From Sulfurisphaera ohwakuensis (GTDB lineage Archaea > Thermoproteota > Thermoprotei_A > Sulfolobales > Sulfolobaceae): a DNA stretch of 64,000 nt. A program made the translations under genes and the position numbers. Below the pieces are notes generated by a model. It ran no database searches. It was not told the DNA's origin and worked only from the letters and a program-made list of their open reading frames with translations. Where the stretch lies: assembly GCF_009729055.1 (NCBI RefSeq), contig NZ_CP045484.1, positions 1,116,001 to 1,180,000 on the forward strand, given 5' to 3'. Below are positions 29,619 to 49,311 of this stretch, one piece after another. Positions within the stretch are counted from its first letter, which is position 1, and the number at the start of each line of letters is the position of its first letter.

Positions 29619-30155
29619 CTATTCTTTAACAAAATGTAGTCGGTTCTTCTCATATTTAATAAAGTTAAGAAGAGTTTTTCCTAGAGCTCTTATATAATCT
29701 CCTTTGCTGTATGCAATCATATCGTTTGCCAACTGAGGAACCCACGTAAGTATGTGCTTTATTATAAATTTTTCCGCATTTTCTACTTCACCGATACTAT
29801 ATAAAAACGATGTAAATTCAAATTCAACCGCAATATGATCTGGTAATGATTTTACTGCTCTTATACCATACTTATTATATATATCTGCGACTTCAAGAGC
29901 TGAACTTCCATAAACACTTCTTTCCTTGTACCATGATTCGTAAGGTGGACAGAGAAGCCTAGGATAATCGTTAATGAAACATGAGGTATACTCAGTTGCT
30001 AGCTTATCATATTCCCCCTGTTTTACCATAAGTATTATATTTTCTACCTCCTTATAGTAAGGCTTCTCTAAAATCCCACCAAGAAGTGACTCAGCTTGAT
30101 AATTAAACCTTGGACCTAAAAGTAGATAAGAAAAGAGTTTGTAGTCAACCCACAT
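29619..30155 (-). CDS. sreE: TorD/DmsD-like chaperone of the sulfur reductase
   Basis: A 178-residue helical protein with the TorD-family traits: YTSCFIN, PPYESWYKERSVYG and PDHIAVEFEFTSFLY. Such chaperones hold the apo-molybdoenzyme, bind its Tat signal and allow cofactor insertion. It is the last gene of the sulfur-reductase operon, overlapping sreD by 11 nt, which matches the position of sreE in the Acidianus ambivalens cluster. Client protein SreA carries a Tat signal. Confidence 0.83.
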   Translation of the reverse strand: MWVDYKLFSYLLLGPRFNYQAESLLGGILEKPYYKEVENIILMVKQGEYDKLATEYTSCFINDYPRLLCPPYESWYKERSVYGSSALEVADIYNKYGIRAVKSLPDHIAVEFEFTSFLYSIGEVENAEKFIIKHILTWVPQLANDMIAYSKGDYIRALGKTLLNFIKYEKNRLHFVKE

Positions 30156-31614
30156 TCAGATCAAACCTCTTAGGTTTAAACTTGGCCGAGGCAAATCTCC
30201 TTTGAAACGAATATTCTGCTCTGTGTCTAGGACATCTTTCAAGCCACTCATCTTCACATTCTAATCCTCTCTCCTTCATAATCTTCTTAACATGGTTTAA
30301 ACTCTTCCTTGATCCCACAGGCTCTCCACAAACTCTGCATCTTACCAAATAATCTTCCATTACAACTTTCGCAGAAGGAACTCCTTTAGACCTCTTAATA
30401 TATATTGCCTTTGTAGAGTTAGATGAAGATGTAGGTAATGAGTCTGAATTAACTATGGCCATTATCTTTCCATTACATCCACCATCTCCTTCAGGACAGA
30501 CGTTTACACAAATATTACATCCTATGCACTTTTTCGAATCAAATACTATCTTTTCACTATCAATGGTTCTTTCAAGCGTTAGTGCTGAAGAAGGACACCA
30601 CTTTATACAGCTCTCGCAGATCGTACATTTATTCTGATCTATAATAACATCATATGCTATGTCGGATATATTACCTAGCGAGTTTAATATTACTTTTCTA
30701 GCCTCACTTCTATTAGTTAGAAACTCAAAAGTAAGCTGTACCTCCTTAGCTTCTTTCATTGTAATAACTCCCTCTGGAGTAATTAGGGAAATGCCTCCTA
30801 TTTCGTTGTTAAGATCATCTACAACAGACTTAAGGAATAATAGATTTTTAGACAACTCACATCCTGGGCACTTTAAGGTAAGCTTTCCATTACTTCGTAG
30901 TAACACTATGTCCTCTGGGGAGAGCATTCCTATACAAGGCAACTTTATAGAGTTTCCAGAATCCTTATAGCAAGAAATTACCTTGTCTCCTTTAACTTTA
31001 GCTAACTCAAATATTGAATGCTGTGATACTGATGGAAACTCTATTGCACTCATAGGACATGAACTTGCACAGAGCCCGCAAGAGGTACACTTATCATAGT
31101 TTATTATAACTCCCGTCTTCTTATCTATAGTAATTGCCTTATACGAACATGAGTCTTGACATACAGTACATGCTCTATGAAGTCCTTTACACATCTCACT
31201 TATGTAAACAGGCTTATCTATTCTATCCTTTACCTTTTGTAGATTCCCAGTAATTACTTCTCTTCTACTGACTTGAAGAGGTTTCTCCTCAATTAATGCT
31301 AGGTCTGCAGTCCAAGCATTTTCCAAGATAGTTACATTTTCTTTAACCGCCATCTCTCCCCAAGAATGGTCAATAACCCTAACAAGAAGAGGATTAATCC
31401 CAGCCCTTAATGCCGCCTCTTTATAAAGCTTTAAATGAATTTCATCATATACACCAACTATAACTACTGCCCTAGCACCAAGATCTTTAAGCTTTGCTGC
31501 TATTTCCTGGGGATCGCATGAATTAAATCCAGAAGGATTTTTATTATGGTCACAAGAGTGATAAAAAATACCTACTTTCAATTTAATTAAGGGGTTTAAA
31601 AAAAGATCAGTCAT
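30145..31614 (-). CDS. sreD: Polyferredoxin-like protein of the sulfur reductase operon
   Basis: A 489-residue cytoplasmic protein with at least four [4Fe-4S] cysteine sets: CTVCQDSCSYKA with CTSCGLCASSCPMSA around residues 148-190, and CTICESCIKWCPSSA with CIGCNICVNVCPEGDGGC around 328-385. The N-terminus (KVGIFYHSCDHNKN) looks HdrA/ferredoxin-linked, and the C-terminus has a CRVCGEPVG...CPRHR metal site. It corresponds to SreD of Acidianus by order and content; its exact role in sulfur reduction or assembly is not established. Confidence 0.8.
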   Translation of the reverse strand: MTDLFLNPLIKLKVGIFYHSCDHNKNPSGFNSCDPQEIAAKLKDLGARAVVIVGVYDEIHLKLYKEAALRAGINPLLVRVIDHSWGEMAVKENVTILENAWTADLALIEEKPLQVSRREVITGNLQKVKDRIDKPVYISEMCKGLHRACTVCQDSCSYKAITIDKKTGVIINYDKCTSCGLCASSCPMSAIEFPSVSQHSIFELAKVKGDKVISCYKDSGNSIKLPCIGMLSPEDIVLLRSNGKLTLKCPGCELSKNLLFLKSVVDDLNNEIGGISLITPEGVITMKEAKEVQLTFEFLTNRSEARKVILNSLGNISDIAYDVIIDQNKCTICESCIKWCPSSALTLERTIDSEKIVFDSKKCIGCNICVNVCPEGDGGCNGKIMAIVNSDSLPTSSSNSTKAIYIKRSKGVPSAKVVMEDYLVRCRVCGEPVGSRKSLNHVKKIMKERGLECEDEWLERCPRHRAEYSFQRRFASAKFKPKRFDLNVG

Positions 31615-31620
31615 ACTTCA

Positions 31621-32946
31621 TCACTTAAATACCCAATGTTTTGCTTCTTCTTCCTCCTCTAATGGGAGTAAGAGGACACCAAGTGTATAAATTCCTAACA
31701 AAAGAAGAACAGAACCTATAAACCATACAATGTCATAGTAATTAATTCCGAAAGGCAATATACTCCATAGAGGTCCGTGATTGAAAATACTCCTAAGTTC
31801 ATATACCCAGTTACTGTTAGCAGGGCTCACTGGAGAGATCGTATAATACCATGTTATAGCTTGCGGAATCACATCTGCGATAGTAATTATTGCAAACATA
31901 CCTAATAAGCTAAATAGTGCAGCTGTAAACAATGTTGCTCTGTTTCCCATCTTGTACGAAACTGCATAAAGAATTATTGGAATTAATATTCCAACGACGA
32001 CTGCACCACCCCAGAATACACTGCTCCACCCACCAGATATTAATAATTGTGCCCAAGGATAGGTCTCTTGGTTTGTCGCTGTGATCCATATCCACCAAAG
32101 CATTAAGAATCCTACAGCTATAGTTGCCAGTAATCCATCTCTAGCTAATATCTTATACATACTGTTTTCTGTTGCAACTGAAGAAGCATTTTGCTTTTGA
32201 GTAGACGAAGGATCAGTTTTATACTCCTTTCTTAACCATGAATATAGAGGGCTGATAAAGGATATCATTCCTATGCCAGCGTAGAAAGATAATATCACGA
32301 ATAGTAGTGGCATAAATGACCCAAATTCAAAGACCCAAGTAGATAGATAACCAAACACTGATCCTAAGTTAGCATCTAAAATAAGCTCGACCGTTACAGC
32401 ATAGCCAGCTATCAGAATCCCAATCTTAGACAATTGATATGCAAGAATTGGCTTCTTGTCTTTTCTTTCAGCTTTCTCACCTATAATTGCCAGGATTAAT
32501 GCTATTATTCCAATACCTACAAGTACATAAAGGACACCGTTCCATGCTATCCTAGAAGTGTCTCTGAAGCTTAAGTATATATATATCGATTCGCCAGGTT
32601 TAAATACTGAGGCAAATACCATGATCCATCCTGGAATTAACACAGCTAGAGCAATCCACTCATTCCTCAATTTAACCTTTTCAAACGGATTTCTTTCCTT
32701 ATGGTTCTTGTTAAATATCTCATAAAGCGAATTGTAAGTACTCACTCCAGTCCCTATTACTCCGAAGAACATATAACCTATTACTAGCAGCCCCCACGGT
32801 ATTGGAGCATTATTGGGTTCTGTAAATGTAACATCCCCGCTGAACCATGCAAAGGGATTAAAACTCATTCCGTAAAATAATAAACCTCCTCCAATTACAA
32901 TGAAAACAATTGTCCAAATTATAAGAGTAATTTCCTTTTTATTCAT
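31621..32946 (-). CDS. sreC: Sulfur reductase membrane anchor (NrfD/PsrC type)
   Basis: A 441-residue integral membrane protein with about ten hydrophobic helices, typical of NrfD/PsrC anchors that exchange electrons with quinol. It overlaps sreB by 4 nt (ATGA type), so subunits B and C are coupled. It would hold SreAB at the cell surface side and pass electrons from caldariella-type quinol to the Fe-S subunit. Charged loops such as [16 protein letters not shown] face the cytoplasm. Confidence 0.88.
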
Positions 32947-33656
32947 TGATCTCCACCCCCCGTGGCATACCTCTGAAGCTGTCTATTAAAAACGTAGAAT
33001 ACCTTAGGTTGAACATTAAGCTCAGGATTAAGAACTATAGCTTGTCCAGTGTTAACTAAGATGCTGACTTCACTATTTGGATCATCCAAACAACCGAATA
33101 CCCTAGCTCCACCAGGACATGTTCTTACACAAGCTGGGGTATGAGTATTATCTGGTGCTGTTCCATAACAGAAGGTGCACTTATCGACGTGAGGAACGAC
33201 ATGAATTAAGTTCTCACCGAAATATTGTTTTGCTTTCTGAATATCCTCATATGTATAGAAGTATCTTGCACCATATGGACAAGCTTCAACACAATATAGG
33301 CAACCCATACATTTATATTCATCTACTACAACTATTCCACCTTCAACTATCTGTGTAGCCCCAGTTGGGCAGACGTAATAGCACGGCGGATTCTCACATT
33401 GCATACAAAGTCTTGGTACAAAGACTCTCTGGACGTTTGGATATTCACCAATTTCTAAGTCTTCCACGTGGGTTCTCCATAATTGCTCCCAAAACGGTGT
33501 CTCATTTTCAATTGCACATGCTGCCATACAAGCCATACAGCCTAGACACTGATCAACTTTAACTACAAATCCCCAATGCTCACATTCCTTTGTGTTTCCA
33601 AATTTCTCATATGGGTTTACAATTGGGTTTTTATCTAAAAGATCTGAGTTAGACAT
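32943..33656 (-). CDS. sreB: Sulfur reductase iron-sulfur subunit
   Basis: A 237-residue DmsB/PsrB-type protein with four clusters: [43 protein letters not shown] and [25 protein letters not shown]. It would wire electrons from the membrane anchor to the molybdenum site of SreA. It has no signal peptide and is probably exported bound to SreA through the SreA Tat signal. A gap of 3 bp separates it from sreA. Confidence 0.92.
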
Positions 33657-33659
33657 AGA

Positions 33660-36600
33660 TTACTCACCCCCAGATGTGGAAATATTAAAACGTGAATTCC
33701 ACTCAGAAGATGAGATTTGCAAATTAGGGCTCACTTGCATGTTAGCTGGCAACGTGTCTGAAGTTTCTACTGGAGCAAGTGTAGTTGCTTCTGTGATTTC
33801 GTCTGGGGTAGCTTTTCTAACTCTTACTGTGAATTGCTCTGATTGTCTGAATCCACCTAGTGGATTATAGCTCCAGGGCCAGAAAATACTTATAGGTTTG
33901 TTTCCGAAGTTCTTTACTGCCCTAGAGGCATATGTTAATGCGGGATTTCTTTGTCCGTAGGGCTCTGGAACACCTATAGTATCTGGCCTTATAAGTTGAG
34001 TAAGATGAGCTCTAAGAACCAGCTTAGGTACTGTCCCATCTGGGTTAGGAAGTTTCCATCTCTCTATAATTATCCAATCTCCTTCGTTTATTCCTATCTG
34101 CTTAGCTACATCTGCATTAATCCAGGCCATCTGGTAAATATTTTCATGATAGCTGTTAGACGCTATTGCCATCAAAAGTGGATTATTTGTGCTGGATGTA
34201 TAAGCAAACATTGGGATTTTGTATTCAACATAGAAGAACTCTGGAGGAGTTGGCTTAAATGTAGGATCATTGTATGGAGGTTCTGCTGGATAATATACAC
34301 CAGGCTCTCTAGCATAGCCATAGTTCCAATCTGGTGGAACATATGCAATTAAAGGATCCCATACTGGATCATATCCATAGTTCTTCACCACATAGTAATA
34401 AAGAACTGTAGAGTATAACTCAATTCTTCCAGTGGGTGTAGCAACTGGTAGATCCCATGGCATTCTTTCGTGATTATTAAAGTATTCATCAACAGTATGG
34501 ATTATTAATACTCCATTGTTTCTCAATATTTCATACATTTTCTCTACTGGCACACCGGTCTTCTTTGATAAGTATGATAGCTTAGCTTCTCTCCAAGCAT
34601 CTGCAGTGAAGCTTCCCCAAGGTGGATATCCATTGTTCTGGATCAGGTATTGTTGATATTTAGGCATTTCCTCCTTAATTACTTGTTTGAACACTTCTTT
34701 ATCTATAGATACGGAATTAGCCATTGCATCAACATACTCATCACCTTTACCGAGCATATATGCTAACATAACGAATAGGTCAAGCCCGTTAGCAGTATTA
34801 GGATAAAGTATAGGTATGGCTTGCCATCTACCTCTTAATGCATAATCCATTGCTGGACCGTCATATCTAAAAGGCTCATCTCTCTCTAGATAAGTCACAT
34901 CTGGTAGAATTACATCAGCATATAAAGTGTCTTCTGTTGGCTGAATATTTATATCAACATAGAATGTATTCTCTAAAATTTCTTTATATTGATCCCACTG
35001 GAAGTTTACTGGAGAGCCTCCATATGACATTACAGCTTTTATCTTGTATGGTTGGCCATTCCACGTTACTTGTCCTTTAACGGCTTCATAAGCTCCAGAA
35101 TCTACGTATAATGTAAAGGCACCAGCAGGCTTTTTACCTTGTTGAACTAAATTCTGATTATAAACATATTGTATAGCGGGATATCCAGTAGACCAGAAAT
35201 TGGGATTATTATACGCATAGATGATACCAAAAATTGTAAGCAGATTACCTGGGAGGTCAAGGAGAGGAACTTTTGCTAAGATTTCGGGTCTCTGAAGTAA
35301 TATTCCTGGTTTTGATGAACCAGAAGAGATTGAAGAATTATATGCTTCGATTACTTCCTTCATTCCTTCTCTATATTTTCCAGAGTATACCCAACCTCCT
35401 CTTACATCAATATTTCCTGTAAGAGCCATTATCATTGCTGTGGCCTTCCTAAATTGCGGTGAACTATCTCCCCAGAAACCTTTTAACCCCGTAACTATCA
35501 GCATAGGTTTTGTAGTCGATATCCTATAAGCAAATTCTTGAAGCATATCAAAGGGAACATCACAGACTTTTGATGCATATTCTAATGTATAACTACTTAC
35601 ACGATCTGCTAAAAACTGAAAAACAGTCCTTATTTTTTTACCGTTTACCTCTAAGTCTGGGACAAACAATGCTGGCCTAATTTCAATACCATCTACCGAA
35701 TACATGTTAGTATTAGTAAATGGCGGAACTTTTACTATTTGCCCCGTTATTTCATCATATACGTAAAAGGCTTTAACAGTACCATCTTCATAGTCCTCCT
35801 CTAGGAGTTTTACTACACCATTTTCTTCATAAGCCAAGAAAGGAGCGTTAGTGTGATATCTTACAAAATATTCATCATAGTATCCGTTTTGGATTATATA
35901 GTTTATTATTGCCATAGCTAAGACCAGATCGGTACCTGGTTTAATTGGAATCCAAAGGTTTGCTTTGGACGCAGCCTCTCCAACTCTAGGGTCTATAACT
36001 ACAACATATGCACCATTGGCTATACCTTCACCAAATCTTACACCTCTGTTAACGAATATTCCAGCTGAGAATGCACTTGTTCCCCAGGATACTATTAGCC
36101 TAGAATACGTCATATCATCCATTACATCAGTTGCATGAAGATCAAAACCTCCTATTACATATCCCACAGACTGCTGGAGGGAGAACATACAGCTTTGCAT
36201 TGGTGTTCCATTTATATTTGGCATCTGAGTGCCCAAAGTAAATGGAATAAAATATCTCTTGTAGTTAGCACATGGTATAGCTCCACCTATTAAGATAACT
36301 TCCCAAGGCTTAATATCGAGCTCCTTAAACTTCTGCATAATATAATTAATTGCCTCTTCCCATGTAGCTTCTCTAAAACTCCATGTTCCTTTTGGTCCTG
36401 TCCTTATTAATGGAGTTTTAATTCTGTCCACATTATAGGTTCTGAATATGCCGGATCTTCCTCTGGCACAAATCTTCCCCTTATTTAACGGAGATAACGG
36501 ATTTCCATCTATCTCTACAGCTCTTATGTAGGTGCCTTTCTTCTCTACCCTTACTAGAATATCACAAGTAGATGAACAAAAGGCGCACACATTAGGTACA

Positions 36601-36770
36601 TAGGAATACTCCCAGCCTGGTTGCGGAGTCTCATAATCTATTGGTGGGGATAACAAGTTAAAGTTGAACTTGCTCGCCGCATAAGCAGCACCACCAGCTA
36701 CAGCCGCTAATGCAGATGCCTTTAAGAAGTCCCTTCTGGTTAAGCGGAGTGAGTTGTAATTTTGTGTCAT
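33660..36770 (-). CDS. sreA: Sulfur/polysulfide reductase catalytic molybdopterin subunit
   Basis: A 1,036-residue CISM-family oxidoreductase. The N-terminus has a Tat signal ([22 protein letters not shown]), then the [4Fe-4S] set C-x2-C-x3-C...C in [13 protein letters not shown] and [10 protein letters not shown], then the bis-MGD domains and a C-terminal dinucleotide-binding domain ([19 protein letters not shown]). In this gene context it is the SreA subunit that reduces sulfur with H2-derived electrons on the outer face. A TATA box (AATATAAAGT, 36791-36800 on the minus strand) lies about 26 nt before the ATG. Thiosulfate or arsenate as substrate cannot be excluded from sequence. Confidence 0.87.
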
Positions 36771-37597
36771 TATGATGTATTATGCAATCTACTTTATATT
36801 ATCCAATTTATAATATCTAAGTTTTAACTCATTAACTCTGTTAAATAACTACTAATTTTCCTATATAAAATGATGTAATATGTATTTTTAATTTGCTATG
36901 ATTAAACATTATGAATCAGTAAAAATAAATAAATATATTAATTAAGTTACCACATTAAATGGAATTTATGTAAAACTTTAAGCTCTAAGTTATATCTACT
37001 TCTTACATTCTACAGTTGTAATTTAAGATTTAAACTTCTATCACTTTATCAAATCTGGAGTTTGATTCTTAGATAAGTATAGCTGTTTTTCTTCTATATC
37101 ATTTATAAGAAAATAGCTGATTTACCAAGTATACTTATAAATACTTACTTTGATATTTGTCCTTTATTTCTATTTATTAAGAATAAATAATACGACAATA
37201 ATATTAATAAAAAATCTATAATCTCATATTCTTAAAACTATATAACGCTAGTATTCACTGCAAACTGTTATTCGAACTCCCCCCAAGGAGTACTGCACTA
37301 AGTTCTTTCTGAACTCCGATTTCTTCTTAAGTTTCACTCACAAATTGATCCTTTATGCGACTCATAGAAAAATTACGACCTTATGACATCAGTTATACAT
37401 TAAGTCCTTAAAAACTATCACTATAGGTTGAATCTAATTAATACTTCTTCATCACGTTAAATATCTTCCATATTTCTTCAATATTAAAATAAATTAAAAA
37501 AGAAAATTAAAGTTAATTTTCTTCTCTTTAACATAATCAAGAGCCCTTCTGATTATACATCTTTATTCATTAGTAAATCCTAGCTAGGTACAATAAA
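36771..37597. other. Gap between the sulfur reductase and hydrogenase operons
   Basis: About 830 bp. Its left end holds the sreA promoter. A short GC-richer patch at 37265-37320 (ACTCC...GGAGT partial hairpin) and a palindrome GAAAATTAA-AG-TTAATTTTC at about 37502-37521, just beyond the hydrogenase operon, are the only structures noted; the latter could be part of a terminator. Confidence 0.45.
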
Positions 37598-38074
37598 TTA
37601 CCATGGTGAATCTTTCCGACTTTTCACACACTGAATAACATTATCAACGTTCACGTGTAATCCTAATTTTTTCAAAAAATCTGAATATTCTGAGAGTAAT
37701 TTCCTCATCCTTTCGATGACTTCCGCGCTAATTCCTGGCCAATCTAATCTTTCCGGCTTTACAGCCATAATGTAAACTTTTTGAGGTTCTCTTCCAGATT
37801 GTTTTGCTAGTGAAACTATCTGAATAGGCGAAAGCCTATGCGCATCAGATATTTCTACTCCTTGGATCTTATCCTTATTTATCTCGAACAGTCCATATTC
37901 TTCTTCCATTAACATAGTATCCAGGAAAATGACTATATCGCCTTTTTCTATGAAAGTAAGTGCATCAAATCCGTTAGCTGACGCATCATAGACGCCCATA
38001 CACTCAGCAGTTATAGATCCTATTGCGTCATCTCCATAAAGTCTGTTTCCAAGACCTATAATCTTAACAGCCAC
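37598..38074 (-). CDS. Hydrogenase maturation endopeptidase
   Basis: A 158-residue protein of the HycI/HyaD/HoxM family: [13 protein letters not shown] at 7-19, a nickel-sensing Asp in FLDTML, and [11 protein letters not shown] containing the metal-binding His. It cleaves the C-terminal extension of the large subunit after nickel insertion; HynL here has such a 20-residue extension. Last gene of the hydrogenase operon, overlapping the preceding one by 19 nt. Confidence 0.9.
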
Positions 38075-38490
38075 TGATATTTCTCCTCCACTTTTTTCTC
38101 TAACATCATTACTGCATCTTCACTATAATCACCGTTATAGTATATTGCATAAACCTTATCAAACCCACCGAAAATCAAAAGCCCGTAGGCTACGTCCTCT
38201 AAGTAAAATCTACCATCAAGACCAGGCCTCACAAGTTCCAACATATACCAAGGATCCTTATTTTCCAGTATAAACTCTTTTTCGCTTATTCCCTCTGGAG
38301 CATATCTACTACTTCCTACAAGAAGTACTCTATCTGGGGAGAGTCTCTTAACTAACTCACTAGCGTAAACAGGATCTGTTTCGAGGTCAAGCACAAAGTC
38401 CTTATCTTTCCATTTATTATAAACTTCTTCAATTACCCTACCTGCTGGAGTTGCAAAGAAGGGGATAAAACCTATTACTATCCTAGTCAT
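38056..38490 (-). CDS. Hydrogenase-operon protein of unknown function
   Basis: A 144-residue protein ([40 protein letters not shown]...) with alternating alpha/beta pattern ([12 protein letters not shown]) and no recognised domain. Overlaps both neighbours by 4 and 19 nt, so it is translated with the hyp genes. Its fold pattern is close in size to the maturation endopeptidases, and its N-terminus could be a diverged GxGNxL region, but the key residues are missing. Role in maturation is inferred from position only. Confidence 0.6.
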
Positions 38491-38708
38491 GAGTTTTTAC
38501 CTCTAATCTTTCTGATAAGCTCTAAAAGGTCTTTAGCCTGATAATCCCTCAATAACTTTTCCTTATCAACTTGCGGTGTAGTAGATTTAATTTCGTAGAT
38601 AGACTTCAGAGATTCTCGCATTACTGGTCTCTTAATTTCGTAAATCATAGAATCTTTTAGAGCATCAAGTTCCATGATAAATTCTATTATGGAATTCAGT
38701 CTCTTCAT
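38487..38708 (-). CDS. Small hydrogenase-operon protein
   Basis: A 73-residue charged helical protein ([18 protein letters not shown] and [19 protein letters not shown]). Two base pairs separate it from hypE and its end overlaps the next gene by 4 nt. No family recognised; size would suit an accessory or HypA-position protein but the zinc Cys motif of HypA is absent. Confidence 0.55.
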
Positions 38709-38710
38709 GG

Positions 38711-39727
38711 TTAACAGATCCTCGGAACTATTTCTCCTGTTGGCATTTCTAATATCTTTGCACCTCCAATCTCAGTCTTCACAACAACAAGATTCTTGTT
38801 CTCCTTATTCTTAGGTTCAATGACTTTTCCAATTACAGATGGTTCAAAACCGAGTTTTTTAAGTTTCTCCATAACCTCATTTTCCTTTGTTGAAGGAACA
38901 GAAAGAACCGCTACTCCCTCGTTAGCTAACACTAAAGGATCTAAACCTATAATGTCAGTAATGGATCTTACTTCTTCTGGAATAGGAATTTTACCCTCCT
39001 CTATGATTATCATCTTACCTGACAGCTGAGCCCATTCATTAAGTGTTGCAGCGAGCCCACCTCTAGTAGGATCTCTTGCTGCATGGATCTCTTTTCCGAA
39101 TTCTTTAAACAGATCTAGCAAGCCTATCAGAGGTTTAACATCACTCTTAATACTAGTATCTATACCGTATTGTATTGCTGCTATAACTGCACCGTGAACG
39201 CCTATGGGCCCCGTAACTATTATTGAGTCACCATCCTCTATTTTGTCTACTATGGGATATTCTGCAATCCCTATTCCTACAGTATTTATTATTATTCCTC
39301 TCATTGACTCTGAGGGAACTACTTTAAAATCACCACCAACAAGAGGAATTTTTAATTCTTTCAAGAGCGACAACATATCCTCTATTATCTTATCAAGATC
39401 TGCCATAGGAAACCCCTCCCCTACCACAATAGAGTCCAGCATTGCAATAGGCCTAGCACCCATCATTATTAGATCGTTCAAGGTCCCAGATATTGATAAG
39501 GTTCCTATACTGCCCCCTGGGAAAAAGTAAGGATATACTGTGTGGGAATCAGTTGTAATAACAATGTTATTGTTAATTACTGCTCCATCATCTGGATAGT
39601 CAATACCCACACCACCTTCGGTTCTTTTAAGTTCTAAAGGCAGCTTTGAGAATATCAACCTTTGTAGCAAAAGTTGTGTGTCTTTTCCTCCATTCCCATG
39701 GTTTAATAAAATCTTATCTTCCATCAC
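38711..39727 (-). CDS. hypE: Hydrogenase maturation protein HypE
   Basis: A 338-residue PurM-like enzyme with HGNGGKD, DDGAVI and [15 protein letters not shown] near the N-terminus, the ATP-binding [25 protein letters not shown] and the invariant C-terminal PRIC, whose Cys carries the thiocyanate that becomes the Fe-cyanide ligand. Overlaps hypC by 14 nt. HypF, which supplies the carbamoyl group, is not in this window. Confidence 0.94.
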
Positions 39728-40034
39728 TTTTCACCCCTAAATCTTCAAGAATACTCTTCATACTCTCCAGATAACTTTTTACAGCTTCTTCAGGATCTTC
39801 TCCTAATAGCTGGGCCGTCTCCCTTATCTGATCGGAGATGAACTTAATGTTTTCCCAAACTTCTTCTTTTCTGAGCTTTGCTATTATAACTCCCGCATGA
39901 ACCATTACGTAGTCCCCTATTTTAACATCATCAACTCCTATTGCTACCTTCTTCAATGTGTTTTGACCTAGATCTACCGTTGCTATAACATCGGAATCTA
40001 TTGAAACAACTTTAGCTGGAACTGCCCAACACAC
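39714..40034 (-). CDS. hypC: Hydrogenase maturation chaperone HypC
   Basis: A 106-residue protein beginning MCWAVPAKV, the HypC signature where Cys2 binds iron and the large subunit, followed by [16 protein letters not shown]. The C-terminal helix is longer than in the smallest HypC proteins. It sits between hypD and hypE; 1 bp separates it from hypD, matching its function in the HypCD complex. Confidence 0.93.
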
Positions 40035-40035
40035 A

Positions 40036-41223
40036 TCACTTCACCTCTGAAATCGCATCCTTTATTCTCTCATAAGATCCGAATCTAGCCCAAACAGCAC
40101 AAGCCCCTTCCATGGAAACCATACATGGTCCCCAGGGCCTTGCTGGTGTACAAGCTTTCATAAACAGAGGACAATCGGTAGGATAAGCTAGACCAAGTGT
40201 TACTTCATTACATTTACATCCTGGAGGTAAGTCGTAATCCCACGGCTTCTCTTTTATCCCTAACTGTGTTTTTGCATCATACTTTTTGAACTTTTCAGAT
40301 AACGTTAAACCACTTTTTGGTATATTTCCTATTCCTCTCCAGATTGTGTCCACAACGTTAAATGCAACCTTTATATTCTCTAATGCAAAAATATTCCCCT
40401 TATAAGTAGCTACTCTCCTATATTCTAAATTTGTAAACTCAGCCTTACCTCTGTACAAATTATTTAGAATCACTAAAACCCCCGTCAAGATATCAATTGG
40501 TTCAAAGCCAGCTACCACAGCAGGAATACCATATTTTTTAGGGAAAAAGTCCCAGCTAATTGCACCAATTATTGTCGATACATGACCGGGACCGATAACT
40601 CCAGATACTGGAGTCCTTTTAGCTTCTTTATGAAGTTGAACCGCATATTCAGCTGCAGGAGCTGTAAGCTTCAGTGAGGAATAGAATAGTAAATTCTCTG
40701 GGACTTTCTCCTTAGTAAATAGTACAGCATAACTAGGAGCGGTAGTCTCAAAACCAATACCGAAAAATACGGAAGGTTTGCCGTCTTTTTTTGCCTCTTC
40801 GATCGCGTCTGCAAAGCTATAAACTATTCTAACGTCAGCACCAGATGCTTTTGCCGCAGCAAGACTTCCTATTTCCCCACTCTTATAGTGTTTAACTGTG
40901 GGTAGTTTAAAAACATCGCCAAAGGTATATACTCTGTACCCTTCCATTGCAAGTTTTATAACGTTCTCAATATCACTTGAAGGAGTAACACAAACAGGGC
41001 AGCCGGGACCCGGAATAAGCTCTACTTCGAGTGGCATAAGTGCACGAAGACCATAATGCGTAGTTGTCCACTCATGTGATCCACAGAAATTCATAATTTT
41101 TATTTTATCTAGTCCAAGCTTCTTGACTACTCTAGGAGCTAGCTTGCTTATCTCTTCGGATATTTTGTTAGCGAGAGCTGAATTTTCTCTAAATAAAATT
41201 TCAATCTGTTTAGGTAGATCCAT
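40036..41223 (-). CDS. hypD: Hydrogenase maturation protein HypD
   Basis: A 395-residue Fe-S protein with [23 protein letters not shown] and the C-terminal Cys set in [32 protein letters not shown] and GACAVW. It builds the Fe(CN)2CO centre with HypC and HypE. The start overlaps the end of the preceding gene by 14 nt. Confidence 0.95.
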
Positions 41224-41872
41224 TTAAATCTCCCCCTTCTGTTTTTATAATATTTGTATTATTTACTTGCCTTTGAGATTTGAAAAGACTAATTAGAAAG
41301 GAATTTAAAAAATCAGAGATTTCATCCATTTTAGCCTTTAACATCTGTATTTGTGTTGTAACTTCCTCATAATTTCCTCTTACATAAAAGCTTATCATAT
41401 ATCTTTTGAGCTCATCGTTTATCCTTGTTAATGAGATTTGCTCATATTTCTTTGAGTCAATTGGGTTCTTAGATATTGTAAACCCTCTTATATCCCAATC
41501 CCCCGATCTGACGAATTCAATCTCAAGGACTTTCTCGAAGCTTACTGACAATTCCGCATAGTCTACAGCACCTATCCCACTTTCTCTTAATGCCCTCACT
41601 AATTCACCAGAGGCTAATTGAAAATTACCGAAGTCGTTTGAAACAACTGTAAACGTTCTAGGCTGATAGAATATTTGACTGTAATTTTTCTTTGCAAAAG
41701 ATCCTTCGCCGTCCACTGGAATATAAGCATATCCAGACATACCACTAATTTTTATCTCTGCAACAGAGTAGCCCAGGCCCACTAATCTACCTGCAAATGC
41801 ATAAAGATCTGGATCACTAAACGTTCTTATCGTAAAGATCCCTGTAAATCCAGAAGCTGATATCTCACTCAT
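41210..41872 (-). CDS. Hydrogenase-operon protein of unknown function
   Basis: A 220-residue protein with no recognised domain: an N-terminal beta-rich part ([35 protein letters not shown]) and a C-terminal helical region ([27 protein letters not shown]). It overlaps the Rieske gene by 8 nt and hypD by 14 nt. Position between a Rieske ferredoxin and hypD suggests involvement in hydrogenase assembly or electron transfer, but nothing in the sequence proves this. Confidence 0.6.
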
Positions 41873-42188
41873 GGATTATCACCTCATCACCTTTAACTTC
41901 CACGGTATACGTTTTTAGATTTTCTTTTGCGGGACCATCCACTACTTTGCCAGATTTCACATCAAAGACAGAACCGTGCCATGGGCATACAATCTTCCCA
42001 TCTTCTGTGAGAAATCCGTCCTCTAAGTCTAAGTGATTATGCGTACAGAAAGCATCAAGTGCATAAAAATTATCCTTAAAATTTACAATTAGAACTGCTT
42101 TTCTTTCCCATGGTTTTCCGTCTGGAAAGTAAAATTCTACCATAGAATCCTTAGGTATTTCACTTTTTTTTATTACTAGCTCAGTCAT
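41865..42188 (-). CDS. Soluble Rieske-type [2Fe-2S] ferredoxin
   Basis: A 107-residue protein with the Rieske ligands CTHNHLDL (C-x-H) and CPWHGSVFD (C-x2-H), without signal or membrane helix. It overlaps hynL by 4 nt. A Rieske ferredoxin is not a standard NiFe-hydrogenase subunit, so it may carry electrons to or from the complex or to a maturation step. Confidence 0.88.
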
Positions 42189-44092
42189 GTATTACACACC
42201 GGAGTTATAACATGCTTTAGCTCCTTTCCAGTTCCTTTAATTTCGAAATGAGCAGCACAGACAAGACATGGATCAAAGCTTCTGATAGCCCTAAGGAAAT
42301 CATATCCTATCCACTGTGATGGTGGGACTTCTTCCATAATTTTTGTATTTATCACAGAAAGCTCAAAAGCACCTATCGCTTTTCCGTTGTTACACCACGG
42401 CCCTTTACAATTATTATCTCTAGGTGAGACATTTTGCGTGGTCGGTGCCTGATATTGATAATTGCCTATTGAATAGTTCTGTACTACCATCCAATGTCTT
42501 ACTGTTCCTCTTGGCACTTCGTACATACCTACTCCAAGAGAGAAAGTCGGCTGCTTCCAGGGTCTTGAAGTCTTTGGACTTGTTTGATTCTTCATAAAGA
42601 GTTCAAGTCCGTATTCAAGATTATCCCAACCAGCAAATATAGCAGCCGCCATATCGACAGCCCTTCCAAGTATTCTACTTAATGTAGTTGAATAATTGGG
42701 TACATCCCACTCAACTGTCCACTTCTGCATAGAGCCAGGTGCTTGAGAGCTTAACCACGCTGGAACCTCATTAATTGCCGGAAGCTCAATGTAAATTTTA
42801 CCGTTCTTAACTATTGGACTGTTAGGATGGAAATGTGATACTGCATGTAATCTAGCCCATGGTCCCGTTTCATAAGACCACATTGTTCCGTCCTTCCACA
42901 CAAGTCTAGGCTCAGCATCCCAACTGTACTTTTCCATAAAGTTAGGTGCAACTGGGTTTGGTATAGTGGTCTTATTCCATAAGTGATACATATAGTAAGG
43001 TGTTCCGTCTGACGCAGTAAGTCCCCAAGCTAACTTATTACCTGCAGGATCTGTTTCAGTTAACGGTGAAGTTGTCTTTGCCCAGTCAGAGTAGAAGGAC
43101 GAGTTAACAAACTCTAGTGAGGATACATTAATATCAATAAAGCTCTTACTGATAAGTTCTCCGTTTCTTACCATTGTAGGCCTAAATACTGTTTGTGGAC
43201 CTTCAGAAGCTTCTTGAGTGATTGAGTCTATATTCTGATATATTGTGGTATAATCATTACCAAGATTCGAGTAAAGTTCTGGACTCTCGTATCCATAACC
43301 AGTGATATAGGTAGGTTTTTCAAAAGTAAGTCCTTGTTTCTCATAATCACAGTTATTAATTAAGAAGTTCGCTAAATCCATCCATGAAGCAATAACTAAT
43401 TTGGTCCATGCAGTTAGTGTAGTTAATCTATACATATATTGTAAAAATATTGATTCTCCAACTGACAAATCAGTTCCTATTCCGCCTGGTATAAGCATTG
43501 GTGGATGAGAGTGCCTTCCATATATAAGCACACCAGCTTCTCTTGCAAGTATTTGTGCCTTTACTGCATGAATCCATAACCATCCAGTGAAGGGATTAAG
43601 AGCTGTCATAATATCTGCAATTGTACTGAACCCGTGAATATCTGTATATTCAGCCTTGGTCTGCTTAGCTGTTTGCCAGCATGAGGGATAATAGTTCTGA
43701 AAAACTTGGGCTGAGAAGTCTGGTCCTTCTAAGACGTTTAAGATTATGCTATGATCGTAGATAGTATCAGTCATTACGTATGCCATATTTCTTAAAACAA
43801 CACCTAAGGGGTAAGGCACTGCTCCGAGGGCCATGTCATTTGCTCTAGTAGATCCGTTAGCGTGGGCGGCACCACAGACACCACAAGACCTTGAAGTTAT
43901 GTGTATAGCATCAGGAGGTTGTCTTCCCCTTAAGAATACTTCAAATCCCCTAAACATAGTTACATAAGTCCAAGCTTGGTCACTTACTACTTGTCTTGTA
44001 TTTGGATCCACATATGCAGTCAGACCTAAATGGCCAGCTACTCTAGTTATAGGATCTATTACCATTTTTATAGGAGAGGACATATACATCAC
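42185..44092 (-). CDS. hynL: [NiFe] hydrogenase large subunit
   Basis: A 635-residue large subunit with the N-terminal nickel motif [13 protein letters not shown] and the C-terminal motif [10 protein letters not shown], giving the four Cys that hold Ni-Fe. After the His is a 20-residue tail ([20 protein letters not shown]) to be removed by the endopeptidase at the end of the operon. With Isp1/Isp2 it belongs to the membrane-bound crenarchaeal group-1 type. It carries a large insertion region compared with short bacterial forms. There is a 47-bp gap to isp2. Confidence 0.93.
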
Positions 44093-44139
44093 CTTATTAA
44101 ATTTGGATCGAATAAAGAAAAAGAAAAAACATATATAAC

Positions 44140-45498
44140 TTACACCTTTTTAATTCTATCTGCCAAAAGATCTACTATATGCTTTACTTGGGTGTTAGCA
44201 TGATAGTAATTAACTGCAAAACTTATGCTTTCAATACATACTGGACATCCAGTCAGTACTTCAGACGCTTTAACCTTATTGATCTCATCTACCTTTAGCT
44301 TTCCCGCATTTATTAAAGGTACAATAGTTGAATCCAAGAACTTCTTTGATTTCTCATCAATAGTTATCCCTATAAGCTTAGCCATATCCTCGATCATCGT
44401 AGGCAATCCGCATCCACCACCTCCTCTACTACAACAAATACTATTCACACCATGACTAGGTAGCTCTTTAAAGTTCTTAGATAGAGCTCTCATTAGCACT
44501 CTTGGCGCTTCAAATACTCCACCTCTTCTTCCTAGCTGACAAGGATCATGCCATGTAATTAGTTCGTCCGTCGATTCAATTGTAAATCTTTTCATCTCGT
44601 ACCACTTAGCCAATAGCTCCGTTACATGCACTACCTCGTATTTCGGTTTTATTTCGAATATCTCGTGCATCATGTATCTTAGAGCTGGATACTCAAATCC
44701 TCCAGAAGTAAGCATAACGTATTTCGGAGACATCTCGGTGAAGTAATCTAAAATCCTTTTCATTACTTCTGCTGCACCTTCCTTATCTCCAAGAATTAGT
44801 GCCAGTGGTGGTCTTATACCTAGTGGTTTTGACATGAAAGTCCAATCTACTTTAAGTGTATCTAATATCTTAGCTACTTTCACTAATACGTCAGGATATA
44901 CTAGGGCTTCATAAATACTTGCATAAAACAGAACTTCGCTAGACTTCTTATCTAACGGTATATCTTTTCCTAATTGAGACTTCATCTTACTTATAAGCCC
45001 TTCCCATGCATCCCTAAAGGCTTTTACTTCCCAGTATTTTCCAGAGACTTCAAGTTGTTCTATCTCTTTGTAAATTGAGGGAACTAATCCAGCCTTAAAA
45101 GCAACTTGCCTTAGAAGATCAATAAGTGCTCCGCTGTCTATCCCCATAGGGCAAACGAACATACAAGCTCCGCAATTTGTACAGTGCCAAACATAATCCA
45201 CCATGGTTTCCACTTCATCAAGTTTTAGATACTTCTTGCTTCCTCCTATTGCTCTACCTATTGTCCTTCCCCACACTGTAAACCTGTACCTATAGAGTTG
45301 CCTAGCTACTTCTGCTTTGTTAACTGGAGAGTACTTAAGAGATGTGGGTGTAAAAGGACAAGCTGCTTCACAAGCTTTACAATTTACACATGATTGGAGA
45401 TAGTAAAGTATTGTTGAATCAATCTGATTATAAAATACATCATCTATAGCCTTCTTCAGTGCTTCCATATTAATTTGTTCAGTTATTACTTGGGTCAT
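44140..45498 (-). CDS. isp2: HdrD/DsrK-like iron-sulfur protein of the hydrogenase
   Basis: A 452-residue protein with two [4Fe-4S] sites ([13 protein letters not shown] and [15 protein letters not shown]) and two CCG domains: [12 protein letters not shown]...[10 protein letters not shown] and the C-terminal TGCPVCIES. This is the HdrD/DsrK architecture known as Isp2 in archaeal and bacterial Isp-type hydrogenases. It links the hydrogenase to the membrane protein Isp1 and thus to quinone. It follows isp1 directly. Confidence 0.88.
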
Positions 45499-46314
45499 TT
45501 ATTTCATCCCCCTCCTCATAATCATAAAGTACCATTCTCTTAACTTACCTAAGTAAAACTCAAACATATGAAAACCTCTGGTAAAGGGCAAAGTCGCTAT
45601 TATAATTTCAGCAACCAAGATATGTGCTCCTAATAAGTTATCATACCAGTACACGTTATTAGGAATATGGGAAGTAGCTAAGAAGCCTAGAACTACGTCT
45701 ACGAAAAGAAGTACAAAGAACCACCAGTCTCCAGCTCTTATACTGAGTCGTTCCACTACTACCGAAAATTTATGAGCTAAATATATTGCTAAAAATATTA
45801 TTAGTAGATATGTTAGGTATTGGCCATTAAGTATTATTGTTAAAGGTCCCCAAATATCATGAACGAATGGATATGGTGTTGAGGTATAGGGAGTAGAGCC
45901 CCTAAAGAATGCTAATTGCCCATCAGCTGAGCTCTCTGGTATTGCTAGAGGGAACAATATTTGGTAAGGAGGAATGTAATAAGCCCAAAAGATCATATGT
46001 TGTGCAAGTAAAAATATGATAAGTATAAGGACTATATGCATAAGAAGACCTACAGCTGTCGTAGCTGGTTTTCTTTTTATCCCTACTTTGCTAGAATTGG
46101 CAAAGGTATTAAATAATTCTTTAATTTTCTCTCCTTGGGTTATTCCTCTTACTTGAGTAGTATAAACAATAAAGGGTTTATTGTAAGTTACAAAATATCT
46201 TGTTACGCGATAAGATGCACCAGCAAAGAAAATAAATATGGTTGGTATAAATAAGTCTAACGCTAATGGATATAGATTTAGTCCCACAGGATATAGACCA
46301 AATGGTATCTGCAT
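45499..46314 (-). CDS. isp1: Cytochrome b-like membrane subunit of the hydrogenase
   Basis: About 271 residues with five or six transmembrane helices, NarI/DsrM-like, and His residues in helices that may bind heme (for example [21 protein letters not shown]). I chose ATG 46314 because it lies one base after the hynS stop; the longer frame from 46362 starts inside hynS with a basic stretch without family match. Isp1 anchors the complex and passes electrons to quinone. Confidence 0.85.
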
Positions 46315-46315
46315 A

Positions 46316-47593
46316 CTACTTCGCCTTTTCCTTACTCTTAACAAGCATTTTCTTTTCTGCATAAGCCGCTAAAGCTCCTAGTGCTATTCCACCTGCTATT
46401 AAACCAGCTGTAGTGGTTACACTCGATGGGGTAGGGACTTGAAGAGGTTTATAAAATGGTTCATATAGATCTGAAAAACCAGGCATAGTACATCCTATAC
46501 ATACTGCACCAGTCCTTGTAGGTCCTCCTATGCCCCCAACCCAGCCATACTTGTTCCACGGACAATTTGATACAGGGCCTTTACATCCCACTTCAAATAA
46601 ACAAGCAGCTGTAGGTTCACCCGGTTGGGTTCTGAATACCCCAGAAGCATACCAAGCCGCTCTAGGGCATTGTTCATGAACTGTATATCTGAAGAAATAC
46701 ATAGGTCTCCAATACTGATCAAGTTCTGGCAGAGGAGCTAATCCTCCTGCCCATAAAACTAGATTCGCGAGAGTCCTCATAATTCCATTACCGTTTGCCG
46801 GGCATCCTGGAACAGCAATCGCAGGTTTAACAGAGGCAGAAGAAGATGGAGTTACATCAAGATAAGCATTAGGATTCTTCACAAAGGTATAGAAAGGTTC
46901 TGCCCATTTAGAAGCATCTGGTTGAAGGTTATTACAGCACTGTTGTTTATAGATTTTTGTTAATAATCCTTCATACCCTCTAAGAGGGTCGTCAAAGAAG
47001 CCTACAGCACCCGTAGGAGATGGTGACCAAGTAGGAGTAATGAAGGATGGTGGGGGTTGATAAACCTTGTCTGATGGTATTCCGCCATAACTTGCACAGT
47101 TACCTACAGCTAGTACTGCAACAGCATTTTTTAGTAGCATTGCAGTCCACTCATTTAATGTTTTATCACCTAACATACCCCAATAACCAGGATTACTTGG
47201 ATTATATTTTCTTGCAGTTGCCTCATCAGGAAAGCTTCCTTCTAAAACCAATACATAAGGGTTCAACTCTCCCCTAAATGCAGCCTCTAATATAGCTGTA
47301 GCTTGTTCTCCTTGCTGGGGCATGAGAGAAGGCCAAAATGAAATCTTGACACTTCCTGGTCCCACAAGAGGACTAGCTCCAAAAAGTACTTGAACTACAT
47401 CAGGGTCTGTAGCTTGTATAATCGCAGTAGTATTTCCCTCACACGCTTGAGCTTCAAACCAGATTATATTAACATCACCATTTTTTATCATATCTACAGC
47501 TTTAGCCACAGCTTTGTCCCATTCAGGGGCTGCTATCATTGTTGCCGTAAGTGCCAATTTTATGAAATCTCGCCTCGATATTTTAAATGACAT
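46316..47593 (-). CDS. hynS: [NiFe] hydrogenase small subunit
   Basis: A 425-residue small subunit with an N-terminal Tat-like signal ([15 protein letters not shown]), proximal cluster Cys in EAQACEGNT and GNCASYGG, further cysteines in [37 protein letters not shown] and CIGCTMPGF, and a C-terminal transmembrane helix ([16 protein letters not shown]). It transfers electrons from the Ni-Fe site. First gene of the hydrogenase operon; TATA-like AAATATTTAAAATAA (47616-47630, minus) lies about 27 nt before the ATG. Confidence 0.93.
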
Positions 47594-47766: not shown

Positions 47767-48288
47767 ATGGAAAAGATAATTGATCCCAATCTAAGAATAA
47801 AAGAACTACAACTACTAATAAATGCTGATAAAAAAAATCCATGGTATCATTTTGAACTAGCCCAATTATTAGAACTTACCGAGCCTCAAAAAGCATTAGA
47901 AGAATATAATTTATCTATTAAATTAGACCCTCACATAGAAGATTTTCATTACAAAAAAGCCTTGCTTTTACAAAGACTAGGTAAATTAGATGAGGCAATA
48001 AAGGCTTTAGAATGGGCTACAGTGATAGATTACCAACACGCTTTATTCTACTATTACGTTATAGGAAGTATGTTGGATGAAGAGGGCAGATTTGAAGAAG
48101 CTATAAAAGCTTATAAAAAGGCACTAATAAAAGATCCTAATAACGAATGGTTAATAGAAGCCATAGTCCTTGATTTACTAGAATTGGGTAGAAAAGAAGA
48201 GGCTTTACAATTTCTTGATGAAGCTATAACCAAGATAAAAAAAGAAGAGCTAGTTAACTTTAAAAGAGAAATTTTAAGGATAAAATGA
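47767..48288 (+). CDS. TPR-repeat protein
   Basis: A 173-residue protein of about four tetratricopeptide repeats (for example WYHFELAQLLELTEPQKALEEYNLSIKLDP, FHYKKALLLQRLGKLDEAIKALEWATVID, EEGRFEEAIKAYKKALIKDPNN). It is a protein-binding scaffold with no catalytic domain. It is divergent from hynS with 173 bp between, and an ATATTTAAAAT box lies about 30 nt upstream, so it might assist hydrogenase assembly; this is only positional. Confidence 0.8.
   Translation: MEKIIDPNLRIKELQLLINADKKNPWYHFELAQLLELTEPQKALEEYNLSIKLDPHIEDFHYKKALLLQRLGKLDEAIKALEWATVIDYQHALFYYYVIGSMLDEEGRFEEAIKAYKKALIKDPNNEWLIEAIVLDLLELGRKEEALQFLDEAITKIKKEELVNFKREILRIK

Positions 48289-49005: not shown

Positions 49006-49311
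<306 letters not shown>

Follow-up and report, generated by a model that had tools for sequence, protein, structure and literature searches.

Hydrogenase and sulfur reductase operons of Sulfurisphaera ohwakuensis

We analysed a 64,000-nucleotide stretch of the Sulfurisphaera ohwakuensis genome (the window; contig NZ_CP045484.1, positions 1,116,001 to 1,180,000; the genome is 2.80 Mb in a single contig), in which a NiFe hydrogenase operon lies on the minus strand in the order hynS, isp1, isp2, hynL, a Rieske gene, hynZ, hypD, hypC, hypE, hypY, hypZ and hoxM, followed after 827 bp by sreA to sreE. Our main concern is with HynZ, HypY and HypZ, three proteins for which a part in nickel delivery had been proposed from the sequence alone (the original prediction); HypZ is instead, judging from sequence profiles and a structural model, a putative degenerate M52 hydrogenase maturation protease with the HybD/HycI-type fold. 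The position of isp1 and isp2 between hynS and hynL is the gene order of group 1g Isp-type hydrogenases, as these are defined in the portion of PMC11018855 available to us.

The layout described in the original prediction is borne out: sreABCDE and the hydrogenase operon adjoin on one strand, all open reading frames (ORFs) were recovered at their predicted positions, the 220-, 144- and 73-residue genes are packed tightly among the maturation genes (taken in order around hynZ, hypY and hypZ, the gaps are -8, -14, +2, -4 and -19 bp), and the three unassigned proteins reach no Pfam or NCBIfam family. The Rieske ferredoxin gene hynY, which sits between hynL and hynZ and is recognized by Pfam, had been overlooked. 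The suggestion that the two operons could form an H2:sulfur respiratory chain is supported, and SreA and HynS both carry twin-arginine translocation (Tat) motifs.

The identical 12-gene hyn order is intact in the window genome and in four other Sulfolobaceae genomes, and the operon is therefore not a chance assembly; in these four genomes HynZ is 54-93% and HypZ 69-94% identical to the window proteins. Direct adjacency of sre and hyn is narrow, being confined to the window and one relative (G220). SreA and hynL are ~31 kb apart in G210 and 24 kb apart in G219, SreA is on another contig in G194, and a close SreA was not found in G192, a genome that is 93% complete.

The hyn operon itself and the names HynZ, HypY and HypZ are already published. 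Laska reportedly described the hyn cluster of Acidianus ambivalens in 2003. In the part of PMC5461723 available to us, the gene table for this cluster includes HynY, HynZ (201 residues), HypY (70 residues), HypZ (143 residues) and HoxM, and holds the same 12 genes as the window, at similar sizes; HynZ, HypY and HypZ stand there as hypothetical or of unknown function, and the table does not give HypZ the identity of a degenerate protease. No paper noting the lost active site of HypZ, or its spread to bacterial loci, was found in a literature search that fell short of most subscription papers. As far as that search shows, it is the identity of HypZ as a degenerate M52 protease, and its occurrence in bacterial loci, that are new.

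HypZ as a putative degenerate maturation protease

By itself HypZ matches no Pfam or NCBIfam model. Profile iteration from HypZ alone over hydrogenase loci arrives at intact M52 proteases, and a profile of 39 HypZ relatives, searched against 177,635 PDB sequences, has hydrogenase maturation proteases as all of its top seven matches (5ttx, E 7e-17; HybD, 8e-9; HycI, 1e-6 to 1e-3; 5ija, 6e-3). The AlphaFold2 model of HypZ has a predicted local distance difference test score (pLDDT) of 96.6 and a predicted template modelling score of 0.90, and Foldseek pairs it at E <= 0.001 with just two entries, both of them maturation proteases (among them 5zby, E 2e-4); in VIA the model aligns with HybD (1cfz) at Z 9.5 over 127 residues and 3.6 A. 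HypZ thus resembles the M52 proteases HybD, HycI and HoxM in fold and sequence profile, and is encoded in the same operon as HoxM, but it differs from them in having none of the three metal ligands.

The metal ligands of HybD, which we take to be Glu16, Asp62 and His93 and whose numbering we use for the alignment columns, are replaced in the window HypZ by G, G and G. Among the degenerate rows (56 in total), Asp is present at position 62 in 0 of 55, His at position 93 in 0 of 54 (53 Gly and 1 Tyr) and an acid at position 16 in 5 of 54, whereas intact rows keep the first, second and third ligands in 63/63, 62/62 and 61/62 cases, respectively; in this table, as in the tree below, rows outside L074-L152 were labelled directly from their ligands, and loci L059, L063, L064 and L070-L072 were excluded from both, being from the same genomes as L074, L116, L100, L115, L087 and L104. 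A tree computed without the ligand columns, which is the more independent check, splits 62 intact from 55 degenerate rows at one branch (support 100/97); rows under 95 residues were left out, and row L143_12790, which keeps all ligands, took its label there from its profile score. An earlier tree left out these six loci as well, together with L061, L067-L069 and rows of <90 residues. From known enzymes and the ligand pattern we infer, the tree being unrooted, that the active site was probably lost in the HypZ line rather than absent ancestrally. A very divergent HypZ-like gene of 148 residues, whose terminal branch ranks first or second in length in the trees, lies in another hydrogenase operon, the second of the window genome (L065:12925-13371).

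An active HypZ, working through other residues and perhaps on a second substrate, would be consistent with the weak matches of 8 of the 39 degenerate members to Pfam HycI. It would also fit the Thermoproteus tenax genome paper, which, in the portion available to us, names hypZ near hynS, calls it a maturation factor, and puts the number of maturation proteases beside hynSL at two (hybD/hoxM), with loss of catalytic residues going unmentioned in that portion (PMC3189178). We nevertheless regard an active HypZ as very unlikely: all three metal ligands are gone, the Gly at the His site is the sole invariant residue of the 39 HypZ-family rows, and the family has no new conserved Cys or His.

HypY and HynZ

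HypY appears to be the free form of a helical domain that in other archaea is fused to the amino terminus of HypZ. HypZ relatives with an amino-terminal helical extension occur in eight archaeal loci, and other archaeal loci have a separate gene of 85-97 residues near the protease. In hhalign, HypY matched the fused extensions alone with a probability of 16.7% (E 0.0015), the separate small proteins with 88.3%, and the small and fused forms together with 91.6% (E 8e-7); reversed controls gave 0.1-0.4% (0.1% for the joint set). Because the HypY profile matches both small and fused forms, HypY and HypZ very likely make up one unit and are best read as its split form.

HynZ has homologues in 5 of the 229 genomes of its class by single-sequence search, and by profile it is found near hynL, and often near hypD, in Thermoproteus, Pyrobaculum and Caldivirga loci. 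Its structural model, built from seven sequences, is fair (pLDDT 79), and the fold matches obtained with it, to an S-adenosylmethionine decarboxylase prozyme in Foldseek (E 2e-4, TM-score 0.31) and to TATA-binding protein in VIA (Z 8.6, root mean square deviation 6.5), are too weak to name a fold. We rejected as HynZ kin a 203-residue protein beside hypA of the window genome (hhalign 0.3%), a 186-residue protein in another hydrogenase operon of that genome (0.1%) and a family of 18 proteins of ~200 residues (mostly 185-230) from the hynL neighbourhood of other archaeal 1g-type loci (0.2%). Members of this last family include L087:11787-12425, L102:12041-12607 and L116:1588-2232, together with 15 others. 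From its gene position, our guess is that HynZ may be an accessory to HynL or HynS assembly.

Nickel delivery

The original prediction held that some of the three proteins could replace HypA and HypB, and it asked for a genome search for hypA, hypB and hypF. These genes are indeed absent from the window, every match falling elsewhere in the genome, and no GTPase HypB of the window genome passes the NCBIfam cut-off (the best CobW/HypB match was rejected as UreG inside a urease operon); the absence from the window and the lack of such a HypB speak for a substitute. The search did, however, recover hypA (C1:964714; E 2e-22, 80 bits, above the Pfam cut-off) and a full-length HypF (748 bits), and the gene after hypA encodes a 236-residue ATPase, the two genes lying ~150 kb before the window. 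Among PDB entries this HypA matches 3a43 best, with HypA also in 5aun-5aup, and the ATPase is most similar to the ParA/MinD/Mrp-type protein contained in 3vx3 and 5aun-5auq. We take these entries to be HypA-HypB(AT) complexes of Thermococcus kodakarensis, which the window-genome pair resembles in these best matches; the difference is that the counterparts here stand at that distance and are unrelated to HynZ, HypY or HypZ.

In HynZ (220 residues), HypY (73) and HypZ (144) neither Cys nor His occurs anywhere (chance of this from window composition, 0.007, 0.2 and 0.04, respectively), and for this reason the three proteins would make poor nickel carriers. HypA is a nickel chaperone with an amino-terminal His nickel site and a Cys zinc site, neither of which the three proteins have; they likewise have no NTPase family match in Pfam or NCBIfam and, by reading, no GxxxxGK[ST] motif of the P-loop kind expected of a HypB. 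One of the three, HypZ, is related to proteases and is not a nickel chaperone. With hypA, hypF and a HypB(AT)-type ATPase gene elsewhere on the chromosome, which is the genomic half of the refutation set out in the original prediction, we give hardly any weight to the proposal that the three proteins supply nickel in place of HypA and HypB.

Distribution of degenerate and intact proteases

We examined 79 hydrogenase loci, obtained from one GTDB genome scan with a HynL alignment and including many contigs cut short. Degenerate and intact M52 genes occur together in 51/79, the degenerate form alone in 2/79 and neither in 18/79. By record title, 48 loci are archaeal (27 with both forms) and 31 bacterial (24 with both); in 20 of the 51 pairs the two genes overlap or are no more than 100 bp apart, and in 44 the distance is at most 2.5 kb. 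HypZ is thus usually encoded near hynL and an intact protease in archaeal 1g-type loci and in many bacterial HofG/1h-like loci. We took closeness to HofG, a group 1h/5 enzyme, as the criterion for group 1h, and the large subunit of one bacterial locus, L119, matched HofG (5aa5) among PDB sequences with 570 bits, the next match having 187. On plasmids, a tblastn search with a bacterial degenerate member gave four records, three of them annotated as maturation proteases; the one on a Mycobacterium intracellulare plasmid scores as intact, and we rejected it as a degenerate M52 candidate.

The bacterial degenerate gene usually comes directly after the large-subunit gene, and 10 of the 31 bacterial loci have the large-subunit gene followed in turn by the degenerate M52 gene, a Rieske-bearing gene and the intact M52 gene. 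At L119:11761-14187 and L142:2638-4930, the Rieske-bearing gene between the two proteases is reminiscent of hynY in the archaeal operon. Mycobacterial HucE, like HynY, is a Rieske-type protein whose gene accompanies those of a hydrogenase, and that hydrogenase needs HucE for its activity; according to the portion of PMC6883350 available to us it is a NifU-Rieske fusion, whereas HynY is a lone Rieske domain of 107 residues.

These arrangements bear on a further alternative, that HypY-HypZ and HynZ serve not HynL but HynS or the iron-sulfur clusters of HynS, as HoxO/HoxQ do in other hydrogenases. A HynS chaperone would otherwise be missing, in that no match to HyaE/HoxO, HyaF/HoxQ or HybE was found in Pfam or NCBIfam among the unknowns of the operon, and a Rieske protein gene lies in the same operon. 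Against this, HypZ is akin to the protease of the large subunit, and its bacterial counterpart usually follows the large-subunit gene; we consider service to HynS unlikely.

Features of the locus

The features of the two operons are collected in Table 1. The isp1 ORF overlaps hynS by 47 bp, and its start is probably set ~16 codons too far upstream. A tetratricopeptide repeat (TPR) protein gene (47767-48288) diverges from hynS, and the same neighbour is kept in G220, G210 and G219. Further on, a plus-strand ORF of 101 residues (49006-49311) overlaps a minus-strand tRNA-Ala gene (49183-49257) and is probably not a gene.

Table 1. Genes of the hyn and sre operons, with window coordinates
Gene and product	Coordinates	Strand	Evidence and remarks
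hynS, NiFe hydrogenase small subunit	46316..47593	-	Pfam; Tat motif RRDFI, residue 7
isp1, membrane cytochrome b-like subunit	45499..46362	-	NCBIfam TmcC/HmcE-type anchors, below cut-off
isp2, HdrD/DsrK-like iron-sulfur protein	44140..45498	-	NCBIfam DsrK E 4e-40, below cut-off
hynL, NiFe hydrogenase large subunit	42185..44092	-	Pfam; closest PDB relative HofG 5aa5
hynY, Rieske-type ferredoxin, 107 residues	41865..42188	-	Pfam Rieske E 5e-17; name from PMC5461723
hynZ, putative accessory protein, 220 residues	41210..41872	-	Homologues in Sulfolobaceae and Thermoproteales 1g operons; no Cys/His
hypD	40036..41223	-	Pfam E 1e-117
hypC	39714..40034	-	Pfam E 1e-17
hypE	38711..39727	-	Pfam AIRS/AIRS_C
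hypY, putative helical partner, 73 residues	38487..38708	-	hhalign against small and fused relatives
hypZ, putative degenerate M52 maturation protease without metal ligands, 144 residues	38056..38490	-	Profiles, model, ligand columns, tree
hoxM, intact M52 hydrogenase maturation protease	37598..38074	-	TIGR00072 57.6 bits, above cut-off; D, D, H ligands kept
sreA, molybdopterin sulfur reductase subunit	33660..36770	-	Pfam Molybdopterin; Tat motif RRDFL, residue 12
sreB, iron-sulfur subunit	32943..33656	-	Pfam Fer4
sreC, NrfD-type membrane subunit	31621..32946	-	Pfam NrfD E 6e-46
sreD, polyferredoxin	30145..31614	-	Pfam Fer4
sreE, TorD/NarJ-type chaperone	29619..30155	-	Pfam Nitrate_red_del E 4e-21

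A proposed role for HypY-HypZ

We think it probable that this group 1g Isp-type hydrogenase operon, beside its sulfur reductase operon, encodes in HypZ a catalytically dead paralogue of HoxM, and in HypY-HypZ a non-catalytic maturation partner. Nickel would be delivered by HypA with the neighbouring HypB(AT)-type ATPase. HypY-HypZ would bind, without cutting, either HoxM or the HynL precursor, which has a carboxyl-terminal extension (a 20-residue tail beyond the DPCLVCAAH motif), and would keep the large subunit back, or check it, until assembly of the NiFe centre is finished; HoxM would then cleave off the HynL tail, ahead of Tat-directed export of the complex. More tentatively, and with somewhat less than even confidence, we suggest that HypY-HypZ may be an ancient pseudoprotease maturation unit, common to the 1g hydrogenases of archaea and the 1h-like ones of bacteria, whose part is to license the cut made by the intact protease.

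Several observations weigh against a dead maturation partner of this kind. The degenerate and intact labels are partly motif-based and the intact profile was made from motif-picked rows, so that the ligand table is partly circular. Pyrrolidone carboxyl peptidases tie with HybD in VIA fold score; because fold alone would not decide, the family assignment of HypZ rests on the sequence profiles. An intact protease stands alone in 8/79 loci, and on two 50-kb stretches of pHG1 HypZ was not detected among the hydrogenase sets, including a HofG-type set, which have intact proteases only; HypZ is therefore no general need even of 1h-type enzymes. Finally, one relative (G204) retains the 3' end of hypE and an intact hypY-hypZ-hoxM (L062:9857-11134) in a genome with no detectable NiFe hydrogenase large subunit. 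Its SreA (69% identical) lies ~20 kb away, and the three genes, compared with the Acd1 genome, have ratios of nonsynonymous to synonymous differences (pN/pS) of 0.07-0.11, a value that cannot date loss of the remaining operon; they may be what is left of the operon, or may form a unit with another role of its own.

Enzymes of group 1g drive the H2:sulfur respiration of hot acid springs, and those of group 1h scavenge H2 from the atmosphere; we know of no worked-out maturation path for either. If our reading is true, a dead protease twin conserved in 1g and 1h-like hydrogenases would add a new component to maturation and could be the part that is missing when 1g or 1h enzymes are made in foreign hosts; and of the three genes in the published hyn cluster that have long been listed as hypothetical, two would become testable.

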